From contig NW_001799144.1 of NCBI RefSeq assembly GCF_000165425.1, positions 252,386 to 316,385 of the forward strand: a stretch of DNA of 64,000 bases, in the 5' to 3' direction. The notes beneath the pieces were generated by a model, which had not been told where the DNA came from, did not search any database, and was given only the letters and a program-made list of their open reading frames with translations. Position 1 is the stretch's first letter. Every line of letters begins with the position of its first letter. Both the position numbers and the translations under genes were made by a program. This document shows, one piece after another, positions 7,144 to 64,000 of this stretch. The DNA comes from Paramecium tetraurelia. Lineage: Eukaryota; Ciliophora; Oligohymenophorea; Peniculida; Parameciidae.

Positions 7144-10100
7144 TCATTTTTTTCCAATTATTGCCCTTATTCTCTCCAAATCCACATCTTCTATTTAATA
7201 ATGTTAAACTTCTTCCAATGTTTACAAAGTCTTCGAACCTGTTCCCACCTTCACCACTAAGTATGCCTAAGCCTTGCTTCCATGAATGTACATTTTAATC
7301 TCCTCACTTGATTGTTTCTCGTGTAATCTTATTAATTCACTACTATTCATAAAACATGAACCCAAGATCTCTCTCTCTGCTCCTGAATTCAGAACTCTGA
7401 ATTCCAAATTACAATTAGCTTCCAACCCTACACTAAAACAATAATTGTAAGTCGGATTGCTTTCTCTCACTTGCACTGGAGTTCTATATGATTAATCTCC
7501 CAACACCATTTAAATAACTGGATTGGGAGCCTTATTTTGATTCAATAAATGTAAGTTTTAAGCCCTTACTATTTGTATTACTATCTCATTTATTTATTGG
7601 ACCTCAATATTCAAATTAATTTTTGATAGGAATACTGAAAAGTCAAATTGATTTAAATATTTATAACCATTCTTGTCAAACACATTGGGTTTTGTGAATA
7701 GAGAATATGATTTCTCACTGAAATTTACTATGTAAAAGGAATCTAACAATTGCTTTGCCTTCTTCTCCTCCATAAACCCATTATTAGATAATTTATATAC
7801 TTCTTCAATCAAGTCCCATGTTAAATTTTACTCTGACAAGAAGAAATTCTATTTATTGAAGTGATATCCTATCTGATCACTCAGAAATGCATATTCGTTG
7901 TTATTAACTAATTTCGAAATGTATTCATATAGCTATCTGTCAATCTTATAATTCTATTGCAATTCATTCAATTTCTAGCAACCATATATTTGATTTTAGG
8001 AATAAAATTTCACAAAATTTGGAATCATTTCCTCATACTCATTAATTAACATCAGCTTAATGCCGACTCTGCTAATAAAACAGTCATAATTAATTGTGAA
8101 ATATTCATTCATGCATATAAATCTACTATCAATTTAACTTTGAGTCAAATGATTAAACTTTATATTTAAATCTCCTAACTTAACATCCTTCAATTGATTA
8201 GCAGCATTCTTCTTACTAAAATATACAGTTATTGTTAACTCCTAATAAGATTGCATTTCCACTGCTAAGAATGACTATGCCAATTAACAGGACAATTCTA
8301 GTATAAAAATTAATATTACTCTTTTTATCGATTTGTTCAGGGTTGGTTTAATGAGTTTTCCCATTGAGTTTCAAGACAAAGTACAGAAAACCAGTGTCAT
8401 TGCCTGCTGGTTTTAACAATTAAGAAATGTTAATAATGATCTCTCTAATTGAAATCATACAAGTAATCTATTTTAATCTTTCTTCCTACTCTTTCTCCTT
8501 TAATATTGCCTATTGTTGAACCAAAGGAATTTTGTATTTATTCAATTGGCATTTCAATTTAGCAATTCCAACAAATAAACCAAATGAGTTAGTTAACGCA
8601 AATTCACCTTCAATTTACCCTCTTAGCAATTAAGTTTACATCAATTCACATTTTCCAATAAGATTTTAAGTATTGCTCGACACTTGTATGATCATTTATT
8701 ATGCTGATAACGCTTAGATCAATTCATTATCAACTTACAATTGTTTTTCTTCATTTATTATAACAGTCTTTTAACCTTATTATTTAGATCTAAATTAAGT
8801 AAAATACTTACATCTATGCAGTAAAATTGACAGCTGAATAAATATCCACCTTGATTATTTTATCTTCAAATTTAAGTGCCTTATCATTTAGAGTTACTTC
8901 AGCATAGACATTTAATCCTACTCTTTTAGGCAAATGAATTTCTTGATGGGTTTGATTATGACTGGATAACAATTCTGGATTCGAGGAAAGTTATTATTAA
9001 GTTATCTTCTATCTAGAATAGTTGATATTAAAACTAAGCTTAGCATTTACAGGCATAAACACTAAGACTTTATCTTTAACCAAATCTGAATTCCTTTCCA
9101 TCCAACTGACTATCTCTTAACAAGAAAGGAAAGTTTAAGCCAAGCTTTGTTCATCAGTCTTTAGTCTAAAATATATACCTCCTTCTATTGAGTCAACAAC
9201 ATCAATAAATTTAGTATTTTGTTCAATTTATTAAATATATGTGTAAGTAGACTCTGAAGGACATTGATATTGAGTTTACTTTGAGTAAATTAAAGGGTAT
9301 GATTTGATTATTTATTCACATAGCGGATATTTATATTCAACACAAAGTTGAGTACCATAAGGAATCGATAATTTCAAATTTTAGATTTCTTTTAGAGTGA
9401 TACTAAATTTATGCACATAAAATTCAAGGTTCTTATTCTCTTGATTTTAATTTTCCTTATCCTCCAAATCAAATTACTTTGGTTTATTCTACACAACAGG
9501 AGGTTTAACTTCCTCTTATTTGATCGAAAACCAATCTTGCAATAGTGATTTCTATATCTCCCAATCCTGTAATACAAAATTATTGTTCTTGACTTTAATG
9601 AATCTGAATATACAATACACTTCCCAAAATGATACATTAATTAGGCATTGATTAAACATTTCTTGTACTTCTTCAATATTGAGAGTCAACTTTGTCACTT
9701 CATCTAGTTGTATAATTTATGCCTTCTATAATATTGAACTTTAGATTGCTAAACAATACCAAAATTCATTTATCTCTTCTAATTTTACATAATTGAATTA
9801 CACAAACTAACATGTTAATTCATATAATAATTTAATTGAAACCAATCTTCTATCCTGAGGTTGCCCCAAGAAATATCCAAAGAACTCAAAATCAAAGTCA
9901 GGAATGTATTACTCTAATTTTGATCTTTCCATTATTCCATAATCACTCTTTTGTAGAATTTTACCTACATACTCAAGAGGATCCTATCGCTAATCAATTA
10001 GATATTAAATGAATTTCTTAATCTATTTGTTTACTTCTACGGATATTCTAGGCCTAAAAATGTTGAATGCAGTTAGACTATTAAGCATATGCTCTTTTTT

Positions 10101-12266
10101 TATTGAATGCTAATTCTTGAAATCAAAGATTCTTATGAATGCAAATAGAGCTTCCTCAGTTATGTTGATGAATTGTAATTATTCAACACTAAAAAATTGC
10201 CCCTTAGGAATGTTTTTTTAAAATTAATTATCATTCTTATTTAGATATTACAAAACCTCAATTATAGATTAGTGTATATTATCAACCAATTCAAAATTGA
10301 AATATTCATATCTCTCCTAAAAAGTTAGTTCTCTTGGAATTTCTTCCATTTAAATTTCTTGATCAACTTTTTTCTTTTCCTATTCTTATTATGGTTCCTC
10401 ATATTGATTTCCCACCTCTTGAATGCTTTTTGTATAGATGTTTTCTATTTTGATTTTGTTTATCTGTGCTGGAATACCAAATGCAATTAAAACATGAATT
10501 GAACCAACTTGTAAAGAATCTCTAATCTTTCTAATTGGATGTTGTTCATCGGATATTATCAATGGATAGATATTCTTAAAGATATTAGCATTAAATTCCT
10601 AAGCCTCATTAATCAGAATTTCATGAATTGATTTCAATGGTATTCTAATCATACCCAACAACTCCTTTTCTTTCCATACTTCAACGATGAAAGGAGAAAT
10701 TTCAATCTTTTAGAACGAATCAAAATTTAAAGGAGTAATAACCTAATAATTCAAATACACTGAATCATTTATTGATGATTAGAAGAAATCATTTGAACCA
10801 GGAATTTTGAATCTGCAATTAATTTTATCTACTCCCACTATTTTACCTAATCTAATCAATAGAGTTGGGTTAAATGAATGATAATGATAATAGATTGGTT
10901 GATCAATAAAATTTTATTACTCTTGATTTCTAATTAAAGATGCTTTTAATCTAATCTCTCCAAGTCTATTTTATTATTGAATTTAATATTCATTCAATAA
11001 ATCTTTGTTTACTACGCTGTATTATAAACCCGAATTTTGGGAAGTGTTGCTTCTATCGAAAGGTAAATTTGTGTTGATTATGATATAAAACTCCTCATTT
11101 GAAATTGCTTTAACTATTTGAAATTAACCTTCACCGAGTGTAATTTTAAAATACTTATGATCATCAGAATTTTCTGGTTTTCTATAGCATTGTATTAAAA
11201 ATTTTATTTAATCAACCTAAAAATCTTGAAAAGAAGATTCATTAATAAACACATCAAATTCTACAGCCTCATTTATTGAATATAAATCCTATCCTTAAGA
11301 TTTAAAAAATGTCCTTTTTTGTTAATTTTTGAATTAGCAATCAATAAAAATATTATTTAAATTTATTGCATTCAATTTCTATTACACTTATTAAGAATAA
11401 GCATGAAAATCAATTAGTTCTAGCTTTAGTTTTCGATAAGAATCAAAGAATTTATCATAATTAAAATTTTAAGTTGTATAGTTTTAAGGAGGAGTCTTGA
11501 CTTCCTCTTATATAGTTTGAACTCCTCTAGTTTCTATTTGATAGGTTGTTTTAACTTATAATGGTTTTTGGACTGGTTCTTATTAAGGGGGGATTTCAGA
11601 TTATTTATGTTGAGGTTTTTCTGCTTGTTCAATAGGTGATTAATTTCTGTTTGATTTAAATTTAGGTGGATTAGGTTTAGTATTTTCTGGTTTATTGGAA
11701 TATCTATATTAAGTTGGAGAATTATTGTAATGTCCACTATTAGGCTTAGAATTTCTAAATGGTTCTTATTATTTAGAAATAGAGTGGCTTTTTTTATTAC
11801 TACTATTTTCTTATTAATTCTATTGATTAGATACAGAGTCAGATCTTTTCTACTTTTAGGGACAACAATTAATACAATGAACTGAACTCAATATCTATTC
11901 TATTCTAGTTGAAACATCATCAACAAATTTAACATTTCCTTAAACTTTAGTTTTTTAACCACTCAAATTTTAATCCTACTTAGAAGGACTCATTTTTTAA
12001 ATTGAAACATCATTATTGACATTTTACTAGTTTTAATTTTAATTGGTTTATTCACTCTAATGTTAATTGATATTAGATTCCGGATCAATATAATTATTTC
12101 CTTAATAATAATTATTTGGATTGACTTCTGCATTTTTTTGGAATGGGTTATTAGCAAATAAAACATTAGCTAGTTTTTAATCTGGATTTTATTATAACCA
12201 AGCTTCTTTTTCAGTTGGAAAAATGACATTAATTTAAGGATATTAAGTCTATTTATTTTATTGTTA

Positions 12267-12323
<57 letters not shown>

Positions 12324-12932
12324 TTTTATCATGATATGTTATAATTATTAAATGTTATTGGATTGATTTAATTAAGCACATAATTCTATTTATTATTATA
12401 GTAGTATAAATTTTGAATTTACTTCGATATTCTGATATCCAATTTTATATTCCTTATTCTCAGGCATTTCTGGGAAGTATTTATAAATTGGATATTATCC
12501 TGAAATGTTATGAAATACCTAATTTTTAGATAAGTCTTTATTCAAATGTCTTGCAAAATTAATGATAATGTATCCAAAAATTTAAAACTTATCCTCTGAA
12601 TCCACAAGATAAATCATAACTTTTTCAGCCTCATTCAAATATTTATGAAATTAAATAATCGGAACTCGAATGTCATACTTCAATTCACTTGAGTATTGCA
12701 AATTTTAGTTTACTGCTTATACTAATAGTCCATCTCCTTCCTATCCCCAAAAAGAGATACGATAGACTAAATTGCCAGAATGAGGGTTTGAATCTTGAAT
12801 CCATTAGACCTTACTCATTTTAATACAAAATTCTCCAAATGATTTATCTGACCCTTTGTCAGTTCCTGGTGGCAGAATGGTTGTACTTTGAATCATTTAT
12901 CTGATTTGTTTTGGTTTAATCTTGGGTGGCAT
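7144..12932 (-). CDS. Large C2CD3-like protein, 1,914 aa (basal-body candidate)
   Basis: ATG 12930-12932 to TGA 7144-7146; introns at 8790-8811 and 8298-8319 (22 nt each) give exactly 1,915 codons. The first ~140 residues match the start of C2CD3, the centriolar distal-end protein: a beta-rich domain with YRISFWGQEGDG and LKYDIRVPII, followed by a GYIIINFARH strand. Several C2-like stretches follow, for example around FIVEVWKEKELLGM and VLIAFGIPAQI, and near the C-terminus VRESNPTYNY with EFRVLNSGAE. A Gln/Asn/Ser-rich linker (roughly residues 190-480) contains a polyglutamine tract encoded by TAA repeats. Overall length is comparable to metazoan C2CD3 (about 2,350 aa). In animals C2CD3 is needed for distal appendages and ciliogenesis; the ciliate role is inferred. 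An additional in-phase intron cannot be excluded. Confidence 0.6.
12257..12322 (-). repeat. TAA/CAA polyglutamine microsatellite inside the C2CD3-like gene
   Basis: On the plus strand this is an ATT-type repeat, pure from about 12268 to 12322. On the coding strand the frame is TAA (with two CAA), so it encodes about 20 consecutive glutamines in the ciliate code. In the standard code it would be a run of stops. Confidence 0.85.
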
Positions 12933-13029
12933 TTAATTCAAATTTTGTTGTTAATTTAATATTAAATTGCATAAAGCATAAACTTGCTACAATAGTTATA
13001 TATTATTTAATAATTAATAACTTCGAAAA
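12933..13029. promoter_or_regulatory. Divergent intergenic spacer of 97 bp
   Basis: This spacer separates the start codons of the C2CD3-like gene (minus) and the Sec7-PH-TBC gene (plus), so both promoters must lie within it or in flanking coding DNA. It is almost pure A/T with no recognisable element. Confidence 0.5.
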
Positions 13030-15482
13030 ATGCTAGATGATGATGAGGATTAAGTAATAATAGTTGAAGACGATTCTCCAAGGGAATAGAATAATAAGTA
13101 AAAATCTAAGAAACAATAAGAGAAATAATAAAGTAATATGGATAGGATTTTAAATGCGAATAATCCCTTAATACAACAAATTACAATATGTGAATAGGCA
13201 GTTTAATAGAGAGTTCATATTGATTAGTTTATAACTAGATTTTCTAAGGACCAGAATAGTGTATTCATAAATATAATGTATATTTTAGGCATTGTAATAT
13301 TTGATTGAAAATTAAGTTATTGAGAACACGAATGAAGACAAAGCCAAGGTGCTTATGAATACAAAGGGATTGAACAAGGATGCAATAAACAAATATTTTT
13401 GTAAGCCAGATCAAAAGAACTAAGAGATTTTTGAGGCTTATTGTCATCTTATGAATTTAAAAGGGAAAAGTTATTTAGATTCAATGAGATTATTATTGAG
13501 TAGATTTCGATTAGCAGGAGAAGCATAAATGGTGGATAGAGTTGTCAAAATATTTGCAAGAGTATATCATTAATAAAATCCCAACGAATTTAAGTCAGAT
13601 GAAACACCCTATGTATTGGCTTATTCATTCATAATGTTATCTACTGATGCTGCTTCTACTAAAATCTTAGAGAAGAATAAGATGACAAAGGAACAATTCT
13701 TAAAAAACAATATTCCAGTATTTCCAGATATACCACCTAAATACTTTGAGGAGGTTTATGACTCAATAACGAGAGAACCCTTTCAAACTACGCTGGATTA
13801 TTTAGAATAGATGTACAATCGTATGATTCTCTGTAACGAGAAACTACAAGGAGAGCAAATAACGAAATGGCTGTAAGTAGCCTTTGATCTAATGAAAGGA
13901 TGTAATTTGGTCAAATATGGCAGATACAATGGGGGATAGCCAAGGAAATTCTTCTTAAGCAGCGATGAAAAGTAATTCAATAAATGATTAATTAAGACGT
14001 ATATGTTGGAGATCGATAGATAATGATAATGAACCAGCAAGATACATTAATATGTGTGATGTACATGACATAGCTTTGGGACACAATACAACTGAAATCA
14101 TGATTAAGAATAAAATTCCCCCAGAATTTGACATGTTTTGTTTTTCAATAATTACAATTCGTAGATCAGTGGATATCAAAGTGAATGATTTGGAAATTAA
14201 ATCAAAATGGATCAATTACTTAAGAGCAGTCATTATAAATCGTAGAGAGGTGGAAGCCAAGAGAGCAGAAGAGAAATAAAGAAGATAGGAGAATGAGGAG
14301 AAGAGATCAGAAATATGGAGAAATGACATCTTACCATTCTGGCGTTCGCATTGGGATTATGAACCCAATAAACCTTTGAGTTATAAGTAGTACATTAGTG
14401 TCAAAAAAGAAGAAGCTGTTTAGAAAGCTTAGAATCAGGCTAATTCTTCCAGTGTATTAGAAAGCTTATGTCGTTGTCTGAAGAAGACTATCTCATTAAA
14501 TCCTATATAGAATAGACAACAAATACAAAACTAACATTACAGCAATCAATCTGAAGTCAATAATGGAAGCAATATCTAATAGGAGATGATTGTGCAAGGA
14601 AAGAAAAATAAGTCAATGTTACTCATGATCTTATGGAAACTTGGATTACCTGATTTTACAAGGAGAACTCTATGGCCCATCATTATAGGTAATAACCTTA
14701 AAATCAGAGAAGAACTCTATGCTTACTATGTTAAAGACTCTAAAATCATTTAAGAATGTATAGTTATAATCAATATGTAGCCATTAGAGGGGATATCGAA
14801 AGGGCAAAGCAACAATATCCTTTCATTACTGATGTCAAAGCCAAGGAGTTGTCAAATATCTTGCATGCCTTCAGTAATTATAGACCAGATTTCGGATACA
14901 TACCAGATTTAATAGATATTGCAGTAGTTCTTATCAAGCATTTGCAAGAATATGATTGTTTCTAGGCCTTGGTCAATCTACTCCATTAATATCATTTCCT
15001 GAGTGTTTTTTAAAATGATATAAGATAAATCGAATGGAGACTGCGATTCTTTGAGGAGAACCTATAAAGAATTCTACCTTTTGTACATAACCATCTCAAG
15101 GCCATTAAATTAGAAACAAAGCTCTATTTAATGAAATGGTTTTTGAAAATATTCTTACATCAATTCAAATTTCCCATGCTTTCAAGATTATGGGATAATT
15201 TTCTGTTGGAAGGAGAGATCTACTTATTCAAAGTTGGAATTTGTTATTTGAAATATTTCTAGATAGAGTTGAAAGTAAGAATGAATGAATATCATTTAGA
15301 TGAGTAATTTGGATGAAGTTGTGCGAATTCTGACAAATTGGTAGCCAGAAGTGAACGAGGATTACTTTTTCATATAAATTGATGAAATTCCGATTAAGGA
15401 TGATGATTATACTAAGTTTTTGGAATAATAAAATGCAGCAGTACTAAATACATAAATTCATTAAACTTTAATTGATTCTTGA
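13030..15482 (+). CDS. Sec7-PH-TBC fusion protein (ArfGEF plus RabGAP-like), 783 aa
   Basis: Four introns (13261-13288, 13972-13996, 14758-14780, 15275-15299) give exactly 784 codons. Domain order: a Sec7 Arf exchange domain (about residues 50-240) with FRLAGEAQMVDR carrying the catalytic-finger Glu and SFIMLSTDAAS; a PH domain (about 280-390) with KFFLSSDEKRICWRS and an SKWINYLRAV end helix; then a TBC Rab-GAP-like domain (about 510-730) containing SIRGDIERA (IxxDxxR arginine-finger motif) and RLWDNFLLEGE. The glutamine-finger YxQ motif is replaced by FGYIPDL, so GAP chemistry may be altered. Sec7 and TBC modules on one chain are known from ciliates. It should couple Arf activation to Rab regulation on Golgi or endosomal membranes. 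Intron 2 ends in AAG. Confidence 0.85.
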
Positions 15483-16416: not shown

Positions 16417-18026
16417 ATGAGCAAAATATCGAAAGAAGCATTCGAATATCTTAATAAACTCAGACAAAATCCTTAAATTGCCATCCAAAAGTTGTAGGAA
16501 CATCTTAAATTGTTCAAAGGAAATGTTGTATATAAGCCAGGAGAGATCCCTTTATAAACCAATGAAGGGCCAAAAGTTGTCAATGGTTAATAATTTATGC
16601 TATATATTTTCAGAATGCATCTCCTTCTTACAGAATCAAAAGCCTGTTGGTCCATTGACTTGGAGTAAGGGTTTGGAATGCGCAGCTAGAGATCATGTCA
16701 AAGATACAGGACCAAGAGGTGTTACAGGCCATACCGGTACAGATGGATCATCAATGAGTGATAGAATTGAAAGATATGGTGAGTGGGATGTGACAATAGG
16801 TGAAAATATCAGTTATGGTCAAACAACTGGAGAAGATGGTATTTCTATCCAATATATGAACATAGTCATAATCTAATTGATTATTGATGATGGTGTATCG
16901 TCAAGAGGACATAGAAAAAATTGTTTCAAAGCAGAATTCGGAGCAGTCGGCATTTTCGATGGTGATCATAAATAATTCAAAACTCAATGTGTTTTTGATT
17001 TTGCAGGCTCTTTCTAAGATTAAGCTGGCTCAGATTCTAATGGAAATTCATAATAAGGTGGAGCTTCATAAAATGAGGGAGGTTAAAGTGCCCCAATGCA
17101 ATCCAGAGAATAAGCACCTCCTGCTAAAGCATAATCCAAAGATCCTGATGATAAGATTGCCAAAGACGCTTTTGGTTATTTGAATCAAGTTAGGTAAAAT
17201 CCAACTCTCCCCATACCTAAGTTATAGGAACTGATGAAGTTATTCAAGGGTAGCGTACTTTACAAACCTGGGGAGATTCCATTATAAACTAATGAGGGCA
17301 CTAAGGTTATCCAAGGTATAAATAACGAATTATTATTAGAATTAATTGCATTTTTATAAAAACAATAACCTCTTCAACCTTTGACATATGACTAGGGATT
17401 GGAGTAAGCTTGTATTGATCATGTTAACGATACAGGTCCAAAAGGTGTATGTGGTCACACTGGTACTGATGGTTCATCTCTATCTGACAGAATTGAAAGG
17501 TATGGAGAATGGAACGGTAAAATCGGAGAAAATATCAGTTATGGCCAAAAGAGTGGGGAGGATGTGATCATCTAATTATTAATTGATGATGGAGTAGGCA
17601 CAAGAGGACATAGAAAAAACTGTTTGAGTCCTGACTTCTTGTTAGTTGGAATAGCAGCAGGAGACCATAAATAATATTAGACTTAATGTGTCTTTGATTT
17701 TGCAGGTGAATTTACTCCAAAGGGAGCACAAGGTTAAAAGCCCAAAGCACAATAATCGCAACCCTAAAATATGAAAGATTAAATGAAAAACATGATGTTA
17801 GGAGGCAAAGGTGGTAACGTAGGTCCTCTACTTCCACAAGATGAAGAAGAAGGTATTCAAGTTTATTAGATTCTTTTTAGAAAAGTTGCCCCCAGGATGC
17901 GTTTCAGTTAGTACTTCAACTGCTATCTCTATTAAGAATGGACAAAAAATAACAAAAATAACTAAGACCTATAAATTTAAGGATGGATCAAGCAAAACTT
18001 CAGTTTAAACTCTAACCGAAGGTTGA
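16417..18026 (+). CDS. Tandem CAP/SCP-domain protein, 500 aa
   Basis: Two CAP (cysteine-rich secretory/antigen 5/PR-1) domains lie head to tail at about residues 8-165 and 235-400. Each contains LTW/LTY, the GHTGTDGSS loop, SDRIERYGEW, IGENISYGQ and GHRKNC, so the cavity His and Glu residues are present in both copies. The linker is Gln/Ser/Pro-rich and the C-terminus adds ~95 residues with a Met/Gly-rich patch. Introns at 16586-16613, 16839-16865, 17316-17339 and 17853-17880 give exactly 501 codons; introns 1 and 3 sit at the same position in the two copies, pointing to internal duplication. No signal peptide is visible (MSKISKEAFEYL), so it may act in the cytosol like GAPR-1, or the true start may be upstream. 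Confidence 0.88.
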
Positions 18027-18344
18027 TAGCAATGTATATCAATAAATAGATATAAAAAAAATATTATAAAATGTATAAAAACTCACCAAAATTGGCTACA
18101 AACCTGCTTAATTCAAGCCATCCTTATGCTAATCTTAACTCTTACGTTCCCATTTGAAGGATGACCCAAAGGGTTCCAATTCCATTATATGTTCATTATT
18201 TTAAGTAGTAGAAGCACACATTTACATTACTTTATGGGTTTATCAAAATAACACCAAATGAAGATTGCTATTAAATATCTATGGATTTCTTTTGTTTATT
18301 TTTAATTCTCTTTATATTTGATAATTAACAAAATAAAATTTCAA
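18027..18344. other. Intergenic, no gene seen
   Basis: 318 bp between the CAP-domain gene and the IQ-motif gene (same strand). Short open stretches only, very A/T-rich, with no recognisable RNA gene or domain. It presumably holds the 3' UTR of one gene and the promoter of the next. Confidence 0.6.
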
Positions 18345-48566: not shown

Positions 48567-48976
48567 TTATTGTAATAATTAATATGTACTTAATTTACAA
48601 ATAAAATAATTACATCAATCAATAAGTAGGATTTATACTAAACAAAAGACAAAACAATTTTTATTATCAATTTCAATTTTCATGAATTGTAATGCTCTCC
48701 ATCACTAAGTAATGGTGCAAAAAGATGATTAAATAAAAATACATAATCATAATTACACTATATTATTATCACACTCAATAAGGATCCTAGAATAATGAAG
48801 ATAATTATAAAGTTGTATTAAATTCTTAGAAGAGATTAAACTCATAAATTCAGAAAGTTTCACTGTTGAACAATGAAATCATTTAGCATTCTTAGTTAGC
48901 TCTCAACAAATATTTCGCTCCATATAATTCATTAACTTGAATTCTTAAAATTAATTTGATTAACAAAAAAAAATAT
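48567..48976. promoter_or_regulatory. Divergent intergenic region, no gene seen
   Basis: 410 bp between the starts of the B-box gene (minus) and VPS8 (plus). Short frames only, A/T-rich, no RNA gene recognised. It should hold both promoters. Confidence 0.55.
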
Positions 48977-51900
48977 ATGAAAATAGATGAAATTATTGCT
49001 AATCCAAATTTATGCCCTCCTAAGGAAAGAAAATCAACAACTCCAAATAGCAAGGAATAGATAAATAAATTAGATTAACTACTCAAAGGGAATTTGATTG
49101 AGAACAAAGTAAATGCAATAGAATCAAAAAAAGAAATTTCATAATATAAATAAATCGATAAGAAAATGCCTTTTAAGGATAACTACTCATTATTGTATAA
49201 CTTATCAATTGGAAATAAAAAAATAGATTAATATACAAATCAAAAATAAGTTTAAGAAATAAAAGAAATTCCATATGTATTAGAGAATATTGGAAAACAA
49301 GAAAGGTAATAATTTTAGATACAATCATAATTCGATTAAACAGAGATGTTGAAGGCTTTTGAAAAAAAAATACACACTTTAGAGTTATTTAAAGAAGTAA
49401 AGGTTTCGAATAAATAAGAGGAATTTTATGAAAAAAATAAAGGATTGTTGATAACTAGTATAACTTGTTTTGAAAATATGGTAGCCTTTGGAACTAACAG
49501 AGCTGTAATCTATATCTAATTTAATAACCAAATAAATTAGTTGGAGCAAAACAAAAAAATTAATCATAGTCCAATTATTTGTCTAAGATTTTTAGATAAA
49601 GGCACTAAATTAATAGGTATTTCGGAGAAATAAGTGTTATTGTACGTTAAAAATGAATTTGTAAAGGCATTTTAATTGAAAATAGAAAGTATTCCTATTT
49701 CAATGACTGTTTGTTAAAAGTCGAAAAACTTTAAGATTTAGTTATTGATGGCTGATTCATTGGGTAATGTGTATGGAATTAGAATTAAATAAACCCTATT
49801 AAAATATGGAATGTAGATGAAATTAGAATTAAAAGAGAATATTTTATGTCATTAGATTGAATCTATAAATTTTTAAGATTAGGAATACATCCTATTAACA
49901 TTTAAAGACTAAATACAATTAGTCAATTTGAAACCAGAATATCAACTACTAATGAAATTAAATTATAAGGTTCAAGAGAATAGAATCATTTAAGTTAAAT
50001 GGTAAATTGAAAAGAAGACACTCTTAATAGCAGTTGGTAATGATAACACATTAGAAGTTCTATCAATTTAATTTGAGAAGTAAAATGATAGATTGAAATC
50101 TAATTTAAACTTGTTATGTCAATACAGTTTTAATAACTAATATATATAGTATTTTACTTGGCTGAGCAATGATATTATATTTGTTAAACATGAAAGAAAG
50201 TTGTATTCTTTAATAGGAATATCAGAGATTCTAAAATAAAAAGTAGATATAATTTAAAAATCTTTAAGTCAGGATATTATGAGTTAAAAAATTGGAGAAC
50301 TATTAGTTTTTGAGAATTCAATTTGTAATTTTTAAAATTAACTGTTCTTTATTTCCAATGAAGAAAAGATATATAAATCAAGAATAGTATAATATAAATT
50401 AAATACTTGGGAAGATTAGATGTAATAATTCCAATTAAATAATGAGTTGAAGGAATAATTTGGAATGGGATTGTATTTGTATTCAGGAAAACTCATAAAA
50501 TTAGGGAATCTTCCAAGAATTGGACGATAAGAGTATCTAAAACCTCATTTACACACCTTAGTATCAAGATTTGTTGAAAGTAGTGTAAAATCTTAATCAT
50601 TTAATTCAATTTACATAGCTATGGATTTCTTAATAATGATTGAATCATATGAGTTTCTATTTAACTAAATATATTTAATCTATAAAAGTAATAGATATGA
50701 AAGGTAATTTTATGAAAGTTTGGAATCTTTTATAAACAAAGGAGTTATTAAATAAATACCAATAGATACTTCATTGAAGGATATACTTGACTATTTTAGT
50801 AAAGGCGATAAGTTAAAATTATTGAAGTTTTTGATTTTTAATCTAGACAAAAGCTTTATTAATTATTCTCTTATCAAAGAATTCTGTATTCAATCCAACT
50901 TACAGAGTATATTGATATACATTCCACCAAAAGATATTGAAGATTATAAGACACCTATATTGACTATTTTTGAGATTTATCAATCCTGCTTAAATAACAA
51001 TTCTTAAGTTTTATAGCATTATTTTAAATCAACAAAGTTGGATATAACAAGTCTAAGCCAAAAATAAATTGATGAGTAGATATAATGTTTAGGTTATAAA
51101 TGTATTTGGTTTATGAGTTTAATATTTAAAGGAGAATCACTTTCTTAGGAGAAGATTCCTGAAAAATATTGGCCTCAGATAGTAATTGAGATATTATAAT
51201 GGCTTTTAGAAAGTGAAGTATTGGAGAGGTTCTTATAAATAGATGCTGGAATATTTTTGAATGAACTCTTGTTAATTTTAAAGGATAATAAGACTTATAA
51301 CAAATTATAAGGTTTTAAGGATGCATTAGATAAATAACAAGGTGAACTTTCTGAGATCATCATCAGAAATATATATACGAAAATTAAGAAATTAAATATA
51401 GTAAGCTAATTCAATTGTTTTATTTTGGAAATAATGAAGTTAGGTTATTAAATATCTTATGAGGATTTCTTGTAAGTTATGATTTACAATTTAAGATGCC
51501 CATATGAGAATTTAAAGGTGTTTGTAGACAAAAGTAACTTTAAGTTTTAAAAGATGGAATATAAATTATAAGAGGACATGACAGATTAGGATAAAATAAA
51601 AAGAGATAATTTACTGATTTAATATATAACATTTTTCACAACCCAGTTATTAGGAGATGATTAGTAATTGTAGAGCATTTTATCAGAAGCTTCTTGTTCA
51701 ATACTTTCATGTTCAAGAATTCAATCTGAAATATATTGTTTAAAAGGAGATTGGATAAAATGTATTGGTACTATGCTAGCATCGTCATCTCTAATTGATA
51801 AGGTATTTTAGTATAATATAATTTAGGAATACATATTCAATTATATTGATAGGATACTCAATTCAAATTAATTTTACAATTAGAAAGAGGAAATTATTAA

Positions 51901-53107
51901 ATTTTGTGTGACTATTGTTTAATAATTGGTAAAAATCAATTGTAATTGTAGGCTGATGTAAGTGTTGAGAAATTGAAGATACTTTTGCAATATTTTCCTA
52001 ACTATTTATATAAATAAGCAATAGTTAAGTTGGATAACCATCCCAATTTTAAACTATATTTGCTGAATCAAATAATATAAGATTCTAGGAATAAGAATGA
52101 AATAATTGATAAATAAATTATGATCTCCTATATAAGGTTATTGTGCAAGCATCACCCATAGGATGTATACGATGAATTGCAATTTGGAGATTTCCCATAA
52201 GAAGATTGTATGATTATCTGTAAAGAATATAAAATAATGAAAGGAGTTGCATTTCTAAAAGAAAGAAGTGGATGCTTATAAGAAGCTCTAGACATATATT
52301 TTGATGTATAACATTGAGTAATCTTAGGTTATCAGAACAGATTTTATTGCTCTAGAGAGTGGACACTCTCAACTCGAATTACAATAACAATTACTAATAT
52401 TAATATTACCTTGTTTAAAAATATGCAGAGAAAACTGTTCTAACGAAGATGATAATTTTCAATATTGGTTGACCTGTGTTAATAGAATGCTAATTTTACG
52501 TTTAGAATTCCGTTTATAGACGAATAAGTTTAATTCCATTAATAAATTATTCTAAGAGATCTTAATGGAAATGTTTGAGAGTGTCCATCCCAAGTTGATT
52601 ATTAGTAATTTAAGTTAACTATTAAAACCTTTTACCCATATTGAAGAACTGAGAAGAACAACTGTAACATTGCAGAAGTTATGCTTTTTTTAATTAATTA
52701 CACATGAACAATTTATAGGAAATCAAACTTATTAAAATTTTAAAAGATTAGAGATATTATATGGTTAAGAATAAAAAGGGACTCTTTTAATGGATAGATG
52801 TCTGGTATGCTCACAGGAAAATGAAAAGTATATGTATGCATTTATGTCATGTTGTCACATTTTTCATAAGTAATGTTTGAGACTAATTAAAAATGTAAAA
52901 GTGTGTAAGATTTGTTTAGATAAAGGGATTCATTCTGATTAATGTACTTTATTTATAGATTAATTTAATTAGTAAATGTATAATTAGAAATATTAGTAGA
53001 CAACGATTATGTATAACCTGGTGATTAATTAATAAAGTAACCTACAATAGAAGAGTAGCTACAATTATCAAAGTAGGAGTAGAGATAATTACGAATTAAT
53101 AAATTGA
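48977..53107 (+). CDS. VPS8: VPS8-like CORVET tethering subunit, 1,361 aa
   Basis: Two introns (51929-51951, 52306-52327) give exactly 1,362 codons. Vps8 is the Rab5-binding subunit of the CORVET complex, which tethers early endosomes. The N-terminal ~500 residues alternate short beta strands in a WD40-like propeller pattern; a long alpha-solenoid follows, including the region around LYLYSGKLIKLGNLPRI and the helical blocks beyond. The C-terminus holds a RING-type finger (about residues 1268-1315): CLVCSQ, SCCHIFHKQCL and CKICL, as in Vps8 and Vps41-type subunits. Length matches Vps8 (1,270-1,430 aa). The last ~45 residues are Gln/Asn/Tyr/Ser-rich. Ciliates carry several Vps8 paralogues with specialised roles, so the exact compartment is open. 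Confidence 0.75.
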
Positions 53108-53179: not shown

Positions 53180-54591
53180 ATGCAAACATAACCAGATCAA
53201 GAACGACTCAATACACAGGCCAATTAGATATAAGAACCGATCTAAAATAAGGCTCCCTTTTTCGATTTAGAATCTTCAGGGGATGCATTGGAAGATGGAA
53301 GAGTGACTAATCTATATTATCAACGGTAATTGATTTAGTTAATAAAATGTAGATTTAGGATGATGGATTTAAGTTTTTTTGTATTCAATTTTATTGGGAC
53401 TGGTTTAACTGTTATTACATTGGAATTAATTCATTATGATGAATAACCAGAAGCACGCTTGGTGATTTTGTGGGTGATATTCATATCAAATATAATAATG
53501 ATGGGATTGGCTGTAATTAGGAATCAAGTAAAACTGAAATGGAGAGAGAGTAAAGGAGATGTGTATAGTGGATTTACAAAGGAGCACGTAGAGTTGTTGA
53601 TGGAAATTATAATTATTGCTGCATCTCCCCTACCTTTCTTAGATAGTATTAGTTTTTATTTTACAAATGATTTTGTTGATGGAGATGTAAACTATATATA
53701 ATAGACAGGTATATTATTATGCAAATGAATTGCTGTGTTTGACTCTGGCATTTCGAGTAATCTTCTTTATTCGTACAACCTTATTGAATTCGTATTGGCA
53801 TTCCAATAGAACAGATAGAGTCTGTAGTTTGTATGCTAGTTAAGCTGATTACATGTTTACCATAAAATCTCTAATGAGGTAAGAATAATTACATCATTAG
53901 AAATCAGCCATTCACAGTTAATTATAGCGCTATGATTCTTCTGATATTTGTATTTGGTTATTGTCTAAGAATATGCGAGAGTCCCTTAAATAGAATCGAT
54001 GTTAGCAGTAACGATTTTAGTAGTTATGCTAATTCCATGTGGTGTGTCATTGTTACAAGCACTACTGTATTTTCTATTTTAAATTGTAGTTGGGATATGG
54101 TGATTATTATACAAGAACATTATTAGGACGTATAGTAATGAGTGTGGTTTGTATATTGGGTAACTTTGTTGTGTCATCAATGATTGTGATCATCACAAAT
54201 GAGTCATATTTAACTACATTGGAAAACAAGGTTGTCATTCTCATTGATCGTTTGAGTTTAAAAAAACAAATGTAATAGGAGGCAGCAATGATTATTACCA
54301 TATTTGGTCGTATGCATTATGCCAAAAGGTATTATTGATCACTCATTTTCTAGACATCTTGATTTGACAGAAGATGAATTCATAAACATGAGCAAAAAGA
54401 TGAAAAAATACGCTATTCAGTTAAAGTTAACCACTCGTAAATATGTTGCAGCCAGAGCTTTGGGAAGCTAATTGGAAGAAATCAATAGTGGATTTAATTC
54501 ACTTAAGGAAAATCTTAAATAGACATCATAGTTGTAGGAGGAATTAATAAAGGCAAACGAAAATCTTATTTATAAGATAGACAACAAATGA
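53180..54591 (+). CDS. Potassium channel of SK/KCNN-like type, 439 aa
   Basis: Introns 53687-53708 (ends CAG), 53879-53900, 54067-54089 and 54329-54353 give exactly 440 codons. Helices S1-S4 lie in residues ~60-230, without a regular Arg/Lys ladder of the voltage-sensor type. The pore sequence SMWCVIVTSTTLGYGDYY has a potassium selectivity filter (GYGD), split by an intron just before LGYGD. S6 follows as GRIVMSVVCILGNFVVSSMI. A helical C-terminal region (MHYAKRHLDLTEDEFINMSK and the KKYAIQLKLTTRKY stretch) sits where SK channels bind calmodulin. Ca2+-activated K+ currents control swimming behaviour in Paramecium; this gene is a candidate for one, by inference only. Confidence 0.88.
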
Positions 54592-54659: not shown

Positions 54660-57600
54660 TCATGGTTTTTTGAATGCTCCAGATAATTGCACTGATCCCA
54701 TTCTTTTAAATTAGGATGCAATTTTATTCTTTTATATTTGTGCCAATTGTTCTTATGACATTTGTTTTTAAATGGAAGCTTAAGATTAGTTTTAACTTAT
54801 GGTTGCCTAATTAATTAATTTATATAGATACATAAGATTAGGACAATGGAGTTTAACTATGTTTATTGCTCTAAGAATTTGATTTCTCTTGAGCTTCTTT
54901 AATTTTAGTAGTTTTCTTTTTACCATTAGTTCTTGGTTATTGCAATCCAAATGGAACTGAGATATTTTGAAGTGAACCACGTCTATTAAATATTGAATAA
55001 ATTATTACGCAAGTTAAGTAGTTGGTTTGAGACTTTAAGAACTTTGTAAAGTATTTGGTTTAATTACAGTTGAGGCTCTTCCTGAAGATCTCTAATACGG
55101 AGTCTAGACTTTCATTGTATTATGGGCTACACTCTTTCTTTAATAGGGTAATACACTATCATGTTGAGAAATACTGCCAACTATTTTAGTTTCTGGTTAG
55201 CCTTTAGGTTTGATTTTGAGAATCCTTTTTTTCTCAGGAGGTGTAACATTCAATTCAACTGGTTCTGCTGCTTAACCTTCATTGCCAGTTGGTTGTATTT
55301 CCATTGCAATTATTTTATTCTCATCTAGCATTTCATTATATTTGATAACATCATCCTCATCAAATTCAATAACATTTTTCTGCATGTGTTCAATCAAAGT
55401 GTCGAAAGATTGACGATAGAATAAATTGGCTAGAATGTTTGTTAAATTAGTGGAGTTTCTTTGATAAGTTTATCTCTTCTTTTGTCTGTAAGCCAAATAA
55501 ATTAATTAAAGCTCATTCATTGCTTGAGATAATGAGGTTTTAACGAATTTATTCAAGACTTTGGATAACACTTTGCCTCTATTAGGGGTAGAATATTCAC
55601 TAAAAGGCGAAGAAGGACTCTTATTATTCTTATCAGAGTTGATTCTTCCTCTCAATTATTCATCATTCAAGATATTCTAATAAATGTTCGATCTATCTTT
55701 CTTAGTTCCTCTTTCTAATTATTTGAGAAACATCTTATCAGTCTCTGAAATGTCTGAGTTGGTAGTTCTATTAACAATGGCAGGTTCATCCTATCCATTT
55801 TCAGTAATACCAATCTTAATGATGTTGTTGTTGTGTTATTCAATCTATTGAATTTAAGAGAGTCTTTGAGTAGGTCTCCTAACAAAATTTTATTCTTGAT
55901 ATTTGGGAATCTTCATAGTGATACCGCCTTTAATTTATTTAATATAGGTTCCATCTTTGTTCTTAATAAAGTCATTGTTCTTATAATATGCCAATGATCT
56001 ATTATTAACAATCGATCTTCTCAATAAATGTAATCCATTTTCTTACAATTCATCCAATTCACCAATTTACACCTGTTCATTCTTGTAAGGTTTTAGTATG
56101 AACACCTATACATGTTTTTCCCTATTACATAGTTCTTCTTCAATCATTTGCAAAGTCTCATTTTTAGCTATGACTCTTTACAATACTTAATTGCTAACTT
56201 CCATCCATCCTTACTTTGTTAATTCTAATTAGAATTGAACTTCTGCTCTAGCTAGATATTTAATATCTAATATTAGTTCATCCAAATCATCGCCAAATGT
56301 ATTTTCGTTTGTATATCTTCTTTACAGTCTTCTCTCGTATTTATTAGTGTGTTAGTTCTTAATCAAAATCTCTTCCTCTACATATTTTCCATTGACACTC
56401 AATTTTTAATCCAAAATTCTAATCTAATTCTGTTCATCAACAGATCTATATTAAGAATCTCTGTGTTCCTAACTGTCCTCATCAATCTAATACATGGATC
56501 TTTTATTTTAATTCCATTATCTTATTCCTGGAGGAATCTCGGACTCACTCAATTTTCTCCAGCCTTATTATTAAGTCTTTTGATATTCATTAATAACCAC
56601 TCTAGATCTGATGATGAATCCATTTGGTTATTTCTCATTCAAATTCTTGCTTATAATAACCTCGGTGATATTTACCAATTTCTAAAGTGCATAAAACTCA
56701 TTAACTTTTCCACTTCCAATGATCTCTGTGATTTCCTCTACATCTTAATAAGGATTATAATCAGGATCTATGTTAGTGACTATCTTTCTTGCAATTATTT
56801 GATTTCCTGAATCATCTCTTTCTCTTAATCCCTCTCCAATCTTTAAATGTTGATTGCCTTGATATGGGAATTTAAGTTCATGAATTTCTTATTCTTAATT
56901 ATTGGGATTCGTCAAAATATGATCTTCTTCAAGATAATACAATGATGTAGGATCATCTGGGATCAATTTATTTGATAATATTGGATTGATTACATTATGA
57001 ATCTTCTTCTCAAACTATCCATTTGTTTTACTCCAACCTTCATTAAATAGTTATCCTTATGATTGATTATTTTTAATGATTTTTCTTGATAATAGTAATC
57101 CATCATTTGGATTAACTGGTTCTTCACCTTCCACATATGGACGACGTCTTAATACTAATTCTTATTTGCCTGTCTCCGGATTTCTAATTAATACTTATTC
57201 TTCAATTAATTACAAAGATTCTTATGCATTCAACAACAACTCCAGATTTCCTTAATTTTATTTCCATCCATCTTTCTTTTGTTATTCTGATGATAACAAA
57301 TTTTCAACCACTCTTCTAGAAATAACAATATTTCCTTTTTCATCTGTTTCTTATAAGTTATTTCCTATTTATGCTGATGCTGAAAATACTCTTCTAATTA
57401 GTTTTCTTTCCATCAACCCTGTCTATTCATTATATTATAGAACCTCTTCTTCAATAAATTTGATAGGCTCCTATTAAGCAACAACAATTTCAAAATGACC
57501 ATCTTCATTTTATTTCCAATCATCACTTGAACAAAGATTTGAAATTATTCTTCTTGATATAACTTTTTATCCATTATTAATTTCATCAATTATTTGATCA

Positions 57601-60600
57601 CCAATGATTGCATTTCTATCATCTTCAGTAAATGGTCTTCTGATTAATTTTCTTTCCTGTTTACCTGTTTTTGGATTGACTGTTATGATTTCTTCCTCAA
57701 CATATTGTTCTGGTTCTTCAGAGTTAATTACCTTAACTAATTTACCATCTGATTCTCTTCTCCATTAAGCTAATGACTCATTATTTTCCACTAATTTTCT
57801 TGATAATACTATCGTACCATCCTCTTTACTTTCATTAATATTTTTTCCCAAATTTACCTTTTAATCATTATATGGCCTTCTAATTAATTTCCTTTCCATC
57901 ATTCCAGTCTCTGGATTCATTTACAATACTTCTTCCTCAATATATTTCAATGGTTCAGCTTCACTAATTTAATGAATCAGAATTCCTTAATCATTTTATT
58001 ACCAACTAGTCAATGCAAAATCACTATCAACTATCCTTCTAGCAACTACTTTAGTGCCATCATTCAATTATTCATTAATTTATTCACCCACCTTAAATTT
58101 ATCATCTTCCAACATCACAGGTCTTCTTGTTAATCTTCTTTCTTATTTACCTGTTTTTGGATTGTAAACTAGAATCTCTTCTTCAATGAATTTTTAAGCA
58201 ATATTTGCCAATACTTTTTCCAATGTTCCATCAGGTAGTTTAGACCATCCTTCCTTCTTCAATTAAGTCAAGGATTGCACATTCTCAATCAAACGCCTTG
58301 CCAAAATTCTATTTCCTTGAGCATCCTTCTCTTTTATGTCATCTCCTATTTTTAGATTCTAATCCTTAATAGTGAATTGTCTTCGAATCAATTTCCTTTG
58401 CATTTATTTGGTCGACTTATTCACAATTAAGATCTCCTCCTCAATATACTTAACTGGTTCAGCTGCACACAATTGCACTTCAAACATTCCAGCAGATATC
58501 TATTTCCACCCTTATTACAACTAAAACTCAGATGAACTATCATTCTCTACAATACGTCTTGACACTATCTTTCTTCCCCCTTATTAATCAAGAATATTAT
58601 CTCCCATTTCCATCTTCTCATCTCCAGGTTAATATGGTCTTCTTGTTAATCTTCTTTCCTATTTACCAGTCTTTGGATTTATTATCAATATTTCCTCCTC
58701 TATGAATTTATCTGGTTCTTGCACATTAATTGTTTTCTCTAATACTCCTTGATGATTAACCCATCCACTCTTCTGCAATTGTTAACTCGATTCAACATTC
58801 TCTACTATCTTCCTTGATAGAATCTTATTTCCATTTTGATCAAATTCCTTCAATTAACCCAATTACAAAGTAGAATCTCTTTTTGCATCATATTATCTTC
58901 TCACTAGTTTTCGTTCATATAATCCACTTTCTTCATTATACACTAGTATTTCTTCTTCAATCATTTAAGATGGCTCTGTCATTGTTATTTCCAGATTCCC
59001 ATCTTTCATTTTCCATCCTTCTTCGTTCAATTAATTTAGTGATTGTTCATTATCCACTATCCTTCTTGCTAACACTCTTTAGCCACCATTTAATTCATTT
59101 AATTAATCCCCAATGGCAACATCCTCATTATAATAAGGCTTTCTTATTATTTTTCTTTCTTATTTCCCAGTCTTTGGGTTTACAATAATTACTTCTTCTT
59201 CTATATATTACAAGGGTTCTTAAGATATCACTTTCTCCTGTTTTTGTACATTCCATCCATCAGCTTATAAGCTAGCCAATGATTAATTATTTTCAATTAC
59301 TGTCCTTGATAACACTCTATTACCCTCATTATCTGTTTCTTATAGATTGTTTCCTATTTTCAGTTTTGGATTAAATGGTTTTCTCACTAACTTTCTTACT
59401 AATTACCCATCTTCTGTTTATACTAGTATCTCCTCTTATATATATTTAACAGGCTCTTTGGAAACCAACTCCATTTAACCTGATTTATTATCAATTACCC
59501 ATCCTTCCTTTTACAATTAATCTTAAGATTACTCATTTTACACTACTCTTCTTGCAACAACCTTTTGATTGCCCCTAGATTCATTCAATGAATCACCTGT
59601 ATTTAATTCTGAATCTCCTGCTTACATCGGTCTACGAATAATCTTCCTTTCCATTTGATTTGTTTTAGGATTTAAAATCAATACTTCCTCTTCAATGAAT
59701 TGAATTGGTTCAGCCTTAGAAATTACTTATTCTAATTTCCCATCCTATTTTACTGTCCATCTTCGTTATGACTGTTTGTTCTCCACTATTTTTCTTGAAA
59801 CAATCACATTACCATCTTAATCAGTTTCCTTTACATTTCCTAATTTAGCATTAGGATTATAAGGTTTACGAATTAGTTTTCTTTCCATTTATTGAGTTTC
59901 AGGATTCAAAACTAAGATTTCTTCTTCAATATATTTGACAGGTTCATTCTAAGCCAGAATTTTAACCATTGAACCATCAGGTTGTTATTTCCACTCTTTT
60001 AATCCTTCAGTAGTCTCCTCGTTTTCAACTATTCTTCTTGAAATGATTCTCTCTCCTTTCTGTCCAGCTTCATCCATATCATCACCTAATTCAACTTCTT
60101 CTCCATAATAAGGTCTTCTGATGAGTTTTCTCTCCTATTTACCAGTCCTTGGATTTATTGTGATAATTTCCTCTTCAATATATTATTCAGGTTCTTCTGC
60201 AATCACTTATTCACCCAATTATTAACTCTTGAGATTATCAACAACCTTTCTCGATAATACTTTAACATTAGGATCTTCAATTTCTTTAGAATTTATCGGT
60301 CTAGTAATAAACTTTCTTTCCATAACACCTTTTTCTGAATTATAAATAAGTACTTCCTCAACTACAACTTAAGTTGGTTCTTCCTTCACCAAAACTAACT
60401 CCATTTAGTCTCCCTTTTTCTACCATTTTTATAATTCATCACTTGATTATTAATTATCAATTAATCTTCGAGCTACAATTTTAGTATTTCCTTTTCCTTC
60501 ATTCAATTCTTCTCCAATCTACAAATCTTACCCATTATATGGTTTTCTTATTAATTTTCTTTCTTATTTTCCATTTTTGTTCATCACTATAACCTCTTCT

Positions 60601-63600
60601 TCAATGTATTATAAAGGTTCTTGGGAGATAATTTTTTCCATCTTCCCATTTTTATCTATTACCCATTCCTATTTCTTTTCTTCAGTCAAAGCATTTTCAA
60701 CAATCTTTCTTGACACAACTCTATTTCCCTATGAATTAATTTCTGTTAGATTATTTCCTTATTTTAATTAAGAATCTTTTTAAGTGAAAGGTCTTCTTAT
60801 GATTTTTCTCTCCATCATACCAGTTTCCTCATTGCAAACCAAGATTTCTTCTTCAATGTATTTAATTGGTTCACTTTAAGATATAACCTTTTCTAAGCAT
60901 CCATTTTATTATTAATTCCACTCTTTTTTTTAACTAGTAGTCATTTCATTGTTTACTATCTTTCTAGATAGAACTTTCATTTATCCATCAGATTCATTTA
61001 ATTCATCTCCTAACTTCAATTATTATCCATTGCATGGTTTTCTAATCAATTTTCTTTCAGCCTTTCCATTTTTAAAAACAAGAACTTCTTCTTCATAATA
61101 TTATTCTGGTTCAGCAGATAATAATATTTCTTTTTATCCATTTTTACTAGAATTCCATTCTTACATAGAATTTGATGATTTATTGTTATCAATCACTTTT
61201 GATGATAATATCTTATTGCCATTTTCATCAAACTATCTTTGACCCTCTGTAAATGGTCTTCTTATTAACTTTCTATCCATCATTCCTGTTTCTTCATTAT
61301 ATACTAGGATCTCTTCTTCTATGAATTTGGTTGGTTCATTCTTTGAAATTTACTTCTCAAATACTCCATTTTTTAATTCAAACTCTTTTCCCTCCTCTCC
61401 TTTGACTATTTTTCTTGAAAGTACTCTTTATCCATTTCCAATATCTTAATTCAAATCATCAGATTCTTCTACCTATTATTCATATAATATTGGTTTTCTA
61501 ACAATTTTTCTTTCCTATTTGCCATTCTTAACTATTATAACTTCTTCTTCAATAAATTAATCAGGCTTCTTTGTTGAGATTATTTTCACCAAATTACCAT
61601 CCTAGCCCTTCTGCCATTCGTCTTATTTTTTTATTGATTCAAAATTATCAACTATCCTCCTAGATAAGACTACACCATCATTCGTCTCTTCATTTAATTC
61701 ACTTCCTAATTTTGCATTCTTTTAATATGGCTTTCTAATTATTTTTGTTTCAACCATTCCTGTTTTTGGATTAAAGAAGACCACTTCTTCTTCGATAAAT
61801 TTGGTTGGTTCTGCATTTCCAAGTTTCAACTCATATTAATTATTCTTCTTTTCCCAATTTACTTAAGCATCATTATCAACTATTCTCCTTGCAACTACTC
61901 TCTAACCTCCTCCTATTGATTCATTCAATTCATCACTAACTTCAATATCTTATCCATAGTAAGGTTTTCTGATTAACTTTCTCTCCTATTTACCAGTTTT
62001 AGGATTCACTTAGATGATTTCTTCTTCAATATATTATTCAGGTTCTTCTCCCAAAACTACTTCGATGGCTCCAGGATTACTTTACTTCCATCCTTATTTG
62101 CTAAGAACAATAGAGGATTTTCTATTATCAACAACCTTCCTTGAAATTACTTTATCATATTAAGGTTAAGAATTCTAATCTCTTCTAATAATCTTCCTTT
62201 CCATCATTCCTGTTTCTGGATTACGAACCAAGACTTCCTCTTCGATTTACTAAGCTGGTTCGTTAGAGTTGATAGTCATCACTAATTCATCTCCTTATTT
62301 TTTCCATTATTTTAATTAATCAAGTGATTAATCATTTTTTACAATTCTCCTTGCCACTACATGTTAATCCTTAGATACTTCTTCATCTAATTCATCCCCC
62401 AATTCTAAATCTTCTCCATAATATGGTTTCCTGACTATTTTTCTTTCTTGCTATCCAGTCTTAGGATTCAAAACTAAAATCTCTTCTTCAATATATTAAG
62501 CTGGCTCTTCTTGTATCAAGATTTCGGTTTGTCCTTATTTCCATTATGATTTAGTTGTCGATTAATTATTTTCAACAACTTTCCTTGAGAGTACTAGATT
62601 TCCTTAAGAATCTTAAATATTAAGATTATTTCCAACTTTAACTGAAGGATTATAGGGTTTTTTGATTATCTTTCTTTCCATCATACCAGTCTCCGGATTC
62701 AATACTAAAACTTCTTCTTCAATAAATTTAATTGGTTCAACTCCTATCTTTTTAACTTTGACACCATCAACTTCAACCCACCCCTACATAGCTTCTTAAG
62801 CTTAATTATTATCGACAATCTTTCTGGATACTATTTTATAACCTTCCTCAGAAGAAATATTCAAAGAATCTCCTAAATCACCTGGATCTTCTCCCTCCTT
62901 CAATGGTCTTCTAATTAGTTTTCTTTCTTGCTTTCCTGTCTTCTAATTTAAAATTAAGACTTCTTCTTCTACATATTTAACTGGTTCAACAGCAACTACT
63001 TTTTTCAACACCCCCTTAACCTTTGACCATCCATTTTATGAAGACTCCACATTATCAACAATCCTCCTTGAAACTATTTTGTTACCATCTTTATCAGTTT
63101 CACTAACTTATCCAACTTCACATGGCTGATATTACCTTCTTACAAGCACTCTCTCTAATTACTTAGTTTCTGGGTTAAGGACAAGTATTTCCTCTTCAAT
63201 GAATTTAGTAGGTTCATCAGATGCTAATTATTTTTCCATCACGTCTCCATTTTTCTGCCATAATTTAAGTTCTTCAGTAGTTTGGTTGTTTTAGATGATC
63301 CTTCTAGCTACAATCTTTTTTCCATTTCCTAATGATTCATTTAATGATTCTCCAATGTCTGGATCTTCGTCATTTCTCAAAGGTCGTCTTACTAATTTTC
63401 TTTCTTATTTTCCAGTTTTTTAATTTATAATTATTATTTCTTCTTCTACAAACTATTCAGGTTCATCATCGCACAAGATCTATTCGTATTGCCCATTCTT
63501 CAAAACCCATTATTACCCTTAATCTTAAGCTTCTAAATTATCAACAATTTTTCTTGATAATACAGTTCCATTCTGTATATCTTATTTCTTATTATTGGGA

Positions 63601-64000
63601 TCATATGGTCTCTTTACTAATTTCCTCTCCATTAATCCGGTTTCATCATTATATTGCAACAGTTCCTCTATAATCATTTTAGTTGGTTCATTCTTAGCAA
63701 TTACTCTTACAAGTTGACCATCCTATTTTACCCAACCTGCTTATTTTAGTTATTCATTGGTTTCTGTATTCTAAACTCTTTTGCTTGATATTATTATACC
63801 TTCCTTTAGAGGAGGATCATTTACATTTCTTCTAATTAATTTCCTCTCTTATTTCCCAGTTTTTTTATTTTAAATGATGACTTCTTCTTCAATGTACTCT
63901 TCAACCTCATTATCATTTAAGACTTTCTCAAGATTTTATCCTTTTTATTCCCACCCCTATTTTGACCTATTATCAACAACTTTTCTACTTAATACAGTCA
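54660..64000 (-). CDS. Giant tandem-repeat protein, C-terminal ~3,100 residues (5' end outside window)
   Basis: The frame enters at the window end and runs to TGA 54660-54662; the only introns seen are 54983-55008 and 54807-54831 near the 3' end, so ~9 kb is one exon. From about 57150 to 64000 the protein is built of ~29 modules averaging about 80 residues (190-270 bp). Each module reads roughly: acidic EEPxxYIEEE; hydrophobic ILVxNP; basic ERKLIRRP; a variable acidic loop with LGDxLNE; then SRRIVENxxS, and GW or a single W before a GxLExVI strand. Two kinds alternate without exception among clear copies: TGKQERK-type and ETGMMERK-type. The last ~800 residues diverge and end in a Lys/Gln-rich tail. 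No known family is recognised. A cortical or extracellular scaffold is speculation. Confidence 0.85.
57150..64000 (-). repeat. Tandem ~240-bp coding repeats arranged as ~480-bp A/B dimers
   Basis: Copies of the EEE-coding motif lie near 57190, 57450, 57690, 57930, 58170, 58440, 58700, 58950, 59195, 59435, 59690, 59925, 60170, 60360, 60600, 60850, 61095, 61315, 61550, 61790, 62025, 62240, 62490, 62715, 62970, 63200, 63440, 63670 and 63890. DNA identity between units is modest while the protein motif is kept, so the array is old and under selection rather than a recent satellite. Confidence 0.85.

Follow-up and report, generated by a model that had tools for sequence, protein, structure and literature searches.

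Giant modular proteins set lengths and spacings in cells, and knowledge of them comes mostly from animal muscle. Titin and nebulin, among them, carry super-repeats. The repeats of Sfi1 are helical, with a motif of the form LL...[FL]..W. Protists are reported to have giant scaffolds bearing many centrin or spasmin sites (PMC12661445). In ciliates, Jotin is reported as a giant titin-like protein, encoded in Oxytricha and Stylonychia on the longest chromosome, with a similar gene reported in Halteria. A further described class is that of the epiplastins (alveolins, articulins and epiplasmins) of the membrane skeleton, for which the published values are 35 ± 6% charged residues with a near-neutral or negative net charge, 33 ± 7% valine plus isoleucine, 0.4 ± 0.7% glycine and 2 ± 2% leucine (PMC6212826). 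Here we describe a gene of Paramecium tetraurelia whose product is a chain of alternating modules, and which we read, with a probability of roughly one half, as a large intracellular scaffold or filament whose two-module rhythm would set its register with a repeating partner.

The window analysed is a stretch of 64,000 nucleotides of contig NW_001799144.1. Under translation table 11 the sole open reading frame of at least 150 aa in the whole window has 153 aa, while table 6, the ciliate code, yields long frames. The giant gene occupies 54660..63998 on the minus strand, a stop-to-stop frame of 3112 codons in table 6 that has no start codon in the window and is open at the edge (63998), its 5’ end lying beyond. 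Antisense frames such as that at 61243-63129 on the plus strand we interpret as a side effect of a genetic code that has a single stop codon. GC skew is strongly negative (-0.37 to -0.49) at 56001-64000, across this minus-strand gene. Paramecium introns measure about 25-26 nt, and the reading frame suggests two putative introns of this kind in the 3’ part of the gene, both GTA...TAG on the minus strand, one of 26 nt (54983..55008) and one of 25 nt (54807..54831). With both removed, the visible protein comprises 3095 aa (358.6 kDa). A window-wide histogram of intron lengths lies weakly above the background of 22.8 at 25 nt (35) and 26 nt (30); since other lengths are equally high (for example 36 at 59 nt), it adds nothing firm.

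The sequence-only reading had reported about 30 alternating modules between 57690 and 63890. Its frame and its description of the module were right, and we count 29 clear modules of two types; the array is larger than had been noted and covers residues 30-2331 (57006..63911, minus strand). The modules are 61-87 residues long (mean 79.4), with boundaries placed by a regular expression on a predicted hairpin; one slot that it missed (slot 20) was added by hand, and a match at residue 2539 was omitted as degenerate. E9 is invariant (29/29), E10 is present in 28 modules, and E2, R23, R57, N62 and W74 in 27 each. All 29 modules entered the analyses of identity, tree, single-module Pfam matches, codons, held-out profiles, charge and distance matrices. 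A profile built from them matches 35 stretches in the giant frame, one of them at chance level (i-E 40), and the next best of the 1400 stop-to-stop frames of at least 25 aa in the window reaches E 0.14. At the window edge the profile finds the second half of a further module (residues 2-28, 63912..63998, minus strand, i-E 0.018), slightly nearer the M type described below (20.3 against 17.5 bits); the array therefore goes on beyond the window. On the other side follow four degenerate modules, numbered 30-33 (residues 2340-2695, 55914..56981, minus strand), with matches at 2355-2409, 2538-2611 and 2614-2690 (i-E 1.7e-8, 1.3e-8 and 1.7e-6) and, more weakly, at 2445-2482 (i-E 0.036). A C-terminal tail (54660..55913, minus strand) comes after them.

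Searches of family collections bear out the initial impression that the module belongs to no recognised family. Against Pfam-A (24736 models) the whole protein yields three families up to E 10, none above its curated cut-off. The best of them, DpaA_N, scores 23.5 bits where 29.2 would be required (E 6.5e-5); it has no stretch that passes alone, and was set aside as a sum of weak repeat scores. Comparing single modules with named domains, a check that the sequence-only reading had proposed, gave at best ENT (E 0.0097), in one of the 29. No family is accepted in NCBIfam either, and the matches to PDB sequences (three at E 0.13 or more, one at 0.12) were likewise not accepted. With one or six short peptide patterns, no relatives were confirmed in viral contigs, prokaryote genomes, phages or plasmids, collections not read with the ciliate code, so that a ciliate relative could be missed. 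Searches of an open-licence paper library brought up no description of such a protein, though it may well be listed, undescribed, in a Paramecium gene database. The module is most likely an apparently undescribed one in a known kind of protein, the long intracellular scaffold.

By description, the nearest published ciliate kind that we found is Jotin with its relatives. The Paramecium protein might belong with Jotin to a wider family of ciliate giants, in view of the reports of single giant proteins in three ciliates, Oxytricha, Stylonychia and Halteria; both are giant ciliate proteins. However, Pfam assigns the giant frame no match of the Ig or fibronectin type, and no Ig or FN3 module was detected by Pfam or, at significance, by Foldseek. 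The Jotin frame of Oxytricha measures 64.6 kb and so greatly exceeds the 9.3 kb visible in the window. We regard a relationship to Jotin as unlikely.

Odd and even modules represent two sequence types, which we call K and M. Mean identity is 0.448 within the same parity and 0.394 between parities, a difference reached by none of 10000 label permutations, and identity at every even lag (2-14) exceeds that at every odd lag (1-13), with no super-period longer than two modules seen over lags 1-14. Leave-one-out K and M profiles assign all 29 modules correctly. They still do so for 28 when ten turn columns are removed (module 1 fails) and for 25 when only post-hairpin columns are used (modules 1, 5, 13 and 29 fail); the types therefore differ along the module, beyond the turn motif. 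Slot 19 has an M-like turn (TNQMERK), yet outside the turn its sequence is of the K type. The alternation, which had been described as strict, holds over modules 1-29 and breaks past the array: module 30, at a position where M is expected, resembles K instead (38.5 bits for K, 31.0 for M), module 31 is undecided (15.6 against 16.6 bits for K and M), and modules 32 and 33 score as K and M. These degenerate modules, with their slipped order, are perhaps a relic of an older array end. The giant protein resembles titin, nebulin and similar giants in that like modules follow one another over a very great length and their types form a super-repeat, and differs from them in that this super-repeat consists of two modules.

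In a tree of all columns, K and M separate on one branch (support 91/92), a split recovered in 92% of 200 bootstrap trees from a bootstrap that was not quite settled, and 17 of the 26 inner branches are open. To this extent the modules form two separate clades. When the turn columns are removed, the types need four changes instead of one (shuffles average 10, and none of 500 is as low), a single clade per type appears in 0% of bootstrap trees, and p-AU is 0.475, so that without these columns one clade per type is neither shown nor rejected. If K-M pairs had been duplicated together and then diverged, the distances among K modules and among M modules should agree; the matrices disagree, whether each K is paired with the following M (r -0.18, p 0.88) or each M with the following K (r 0.16, p 0.16), and co-duplicated dimers find no support under either pairing. 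Growth by a two-module unit, as had been suggested, is therefore not established. Duplication of two modules is to our mind the simplest origin of the array, although not demonstrated, and the alternation may just as well be due to selection. Across all 406 pairs of modules, 42% of residues are identical, and the codons for identical residues differ at an average of 0.469, against 0.482 expected by random choice. Synonymous positions thus look saturated on average, which argues for an old array without recent homogenisation, maintained by selection at the protein level.

An AlphaFold2 model of two and a half modules (half M, K, M, half K; 14 alignment rows) has a mean pLDDT of 91.6, a pTM of 0.71 and no residue below 70. 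A single unit (26 rows) gave 78.3 and 0.59, but differed in alignment and boundaries, so that the drop in confidence is no clean test of cooperation between modules. Alignment A4 comprised 26 of the 29 modules, all but 1, 16 and 29, and alignment A5 26 of 28 units, all but 15 and 16; a tetrad alignment, A2, of 26 overlapping rows was discarded, as MAFFT had aligned shared stretches instead of slots. In the model, strands β1 (QYIEEEVIIV) and β2 (QERKIIRKP) are followed by a short linker strand and by β4 (QRVLARRIVD), which lies around ARRIVD or SRKIVE. After β4 come a six-residue helix, a turn with the conserved tryptophan, and β6. At two model boundaries out of the three, a tripeptide (EPS or PDK) links β6 to β1 of the next module; at the first, beside the cut end, no last strand is called. 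Because of this continuity, the boundary that had been placed at EEP cuts a likely hairpin. The modules are accordingly predicted to fold as a β-rich chain in which the linker too is ordered.

Structural comparison by Foldseek gave no match with an E of 0.001 or less in the PDB (both models) or in a viral library (first model). Up to E 10 it listed 580, 543 and 154 matches, with TM-scores of at most 0.39 among the best 50 of each. The highest probability (0.85) went to a fragment of bacterial RNA polymerase β, at E 0.58, which we take as chance. The model would thus have no known fold in the sense of the PDB and the viral library at the sensitivity of Foldseek.

Each module had been described as having an acidic and a basic half, which might zip together between neighbours. 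Both are present, but in the model they are the two strands of one β-hairpin and face each other inside the module. With the hairpin register taken from the strand ends of the model rather than from coordinates, nine pairs of positions face each other, one of which, E8-R27, would be a conserved salt bridge: its residues carry opposite charges in 26 of the 29 modules and like charges in none. E9 and E10 lie opposite I or L, and R23, K24 and R28 opposite L, V or I; the other charges of the hairpin could only pair diagonally. As the two halves would already face each other within one hairpin, zipping of the EEE and RKLIRR faces of neighbours would not be needed to satisfy these charges, though it may occur all the same.

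What does differ between neighbours is the net charge of several parts of the module, and above all of the hairpin tip and the linker. The tip (columns 14-21) is basic in K modules (+1.87) and slightly acidic and methionine-bearing in M modules (-0.79; p 1.7e-5, a value partly circular in that the tip motif first defined the types), and the linker (columns 30-53) stands at -3.60 in K and -0.64 in M (p 3.4e-5), these and the following p-values being uncorrected for seven regions tested. The β1 stem (-2.80 in K, -2.00 in M, p 0.0013), β4 (1.73 and 0.86, p 0.0012) and the helix-tryptophan region (-1.47 and 0.07, p 0.0022) differ as well, so that the charge rhythm is not confined to tip and linker; no significant difference was seen in the β2 stem or in the last strand. 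The surface pattern recurs with every second module.

High charge and a β-rich prediction are also what one would expect of a long-form, cortical epiplastin of the membrane skeleton, and epiplastins are found in ciliates. The array contains 33.5% charged residues with a net charge of -41 over 2302 residues, as in epiplastins, and the model consists mostly of strands. Its composition is nevertheless quite different, with 16.1% valine plus isoleucine, 6.0% glycine and 7.6% leucine. There is no VPV in the giant frame, acid-base dyads, which in epiplastins are abundant and usually flanked by V or I, are depleted (71, against 128.6 in shuffles), those flanked by V or I on both sides number 0 against 3.3, and the epiplasmin motif [ERK]xx[VILT]EY[VIY] does not occur in the array. 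IMCp is not among the three Pfam families listed up to E 10. Epiplastins have long strands and no helix, and the model has mostly strands and a six-residue helix in each module. Epiplastin domains are described, furthermore, as low-complexity, whereas the modules here are regular and confidently folded in the model. We consider an epiplastin improbable. Still harder to sustain is a scaffold for centrin or spasmin of the Sfi1 type, as in ciliate contractile fibres, even though giant repeat scaffolds are reported from protists (PMC12661445): the array has no match to the LL...[FL]..W motif and its modules are predicted to be β-rich, where Sfi1-type repeats are helical. We consider this very improbable.

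Tandem β modules are common in adhesins, and the protein could instead be secreted or displayed at the surface, as an adhesin or coat protein in which the alternation is a feature of packing. The N-terminus lies beyond the window, and a signal peptide, or a catalytic head, is possible there. In the visible part, by contrast, no transmembrane-like stretch was found (the highest 19-residue hydropathy is 0.85), and cysteine makes up 0.3% of array residues. In the spliced product the final 395 residues of the tail abound in Q, S, K and N and have an isoelectric point of 9.9, and such a basic tail would be more typical of intracellular proteins; the tail has no Pfam match at E 0.01. A secreted or surface role therefore seems to us unlikely.

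We thus return to the large intracellular scaffold or filament as our main reading. The body of such a protein would consist of over 30 β-rich modules, each about 79 residues long, strung together so that the last strand of each turns at an EP motif into the hairpin of the next. Neighbours joined by so tight a β-turn may form an elongated and fairly stiff chain instead of loose beads. K modules contribute a basic tip and an acidic linker, and M modules a slightly acidic methionine tip and a near-neutral linker. Along the chain, similar surface chemistry would therefore recur at intervals of two modules, or about 159 residues. This period may match that of a repeating partner, either another copy of the protein or a cytoskeletal lattice, in the manner of the super-repeats of titin and nebulin, and the protein would be a candidate component of the ciliate cortex or of ciliate fibre systems. 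With its unrelated and uncatalogued module and its two-step rhythm, such a ciliate protein would represent an independent solution to the setting of lengths and spacings. Rather more speculatively, the modules might be a new fold family, outside Pfam and, as far as Foldseek can tell, the PDB, that forms continuous β-chains in ciliates, whose basic-tipped and acidic-tipped hairpins stand out in a fixed rhythm and hold two chains, or one chain and a lattice, in register; the chain would perhaps exceed 100 nm, if each module is assumed to span 3-4 nm. We hold this further step to be doubtful, but if true it would amount to an electrostatic molecular ruler with an evolutionary origin separate from those of titin and nebulin. 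Since a module this small is predicted to fold well, its fold, stiffness and pairing are directly testable.

The rest of the window contains ordinary eukaryotic genes, among them those for VPS8, a C2CD3-type C2 domain, an aspartyl protease, a sulfate permease and CAP domains. In the long frame at 8754-13214 (minus strand) Pfam recognises the C2 domain found N-terminally in C2CD3, a centriole protein (E 5.6e-14), and a TTA repeat inside it (12253-12350) is a polyglutamine run in translation. At 16421-18154 (plus strand) two CAP (SCP) stretches lie in one frame, perhaps a tandem duplication. The frame at 48941-53104 (plus strand) matches the central TPR region of VPS8 (E 1.8e-14) and is followed by one with a weak RING finger, below cut-off; the two are perhaps one vacuolar-sorting gene split by tiny introns. 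A last frame, at 53601-54335 (plus strand), which has no Pfam match at E 0.01, ends near the 3’ end of the giant gene and shows by eye a potassium-channel-like pore sequence, LGYGD.
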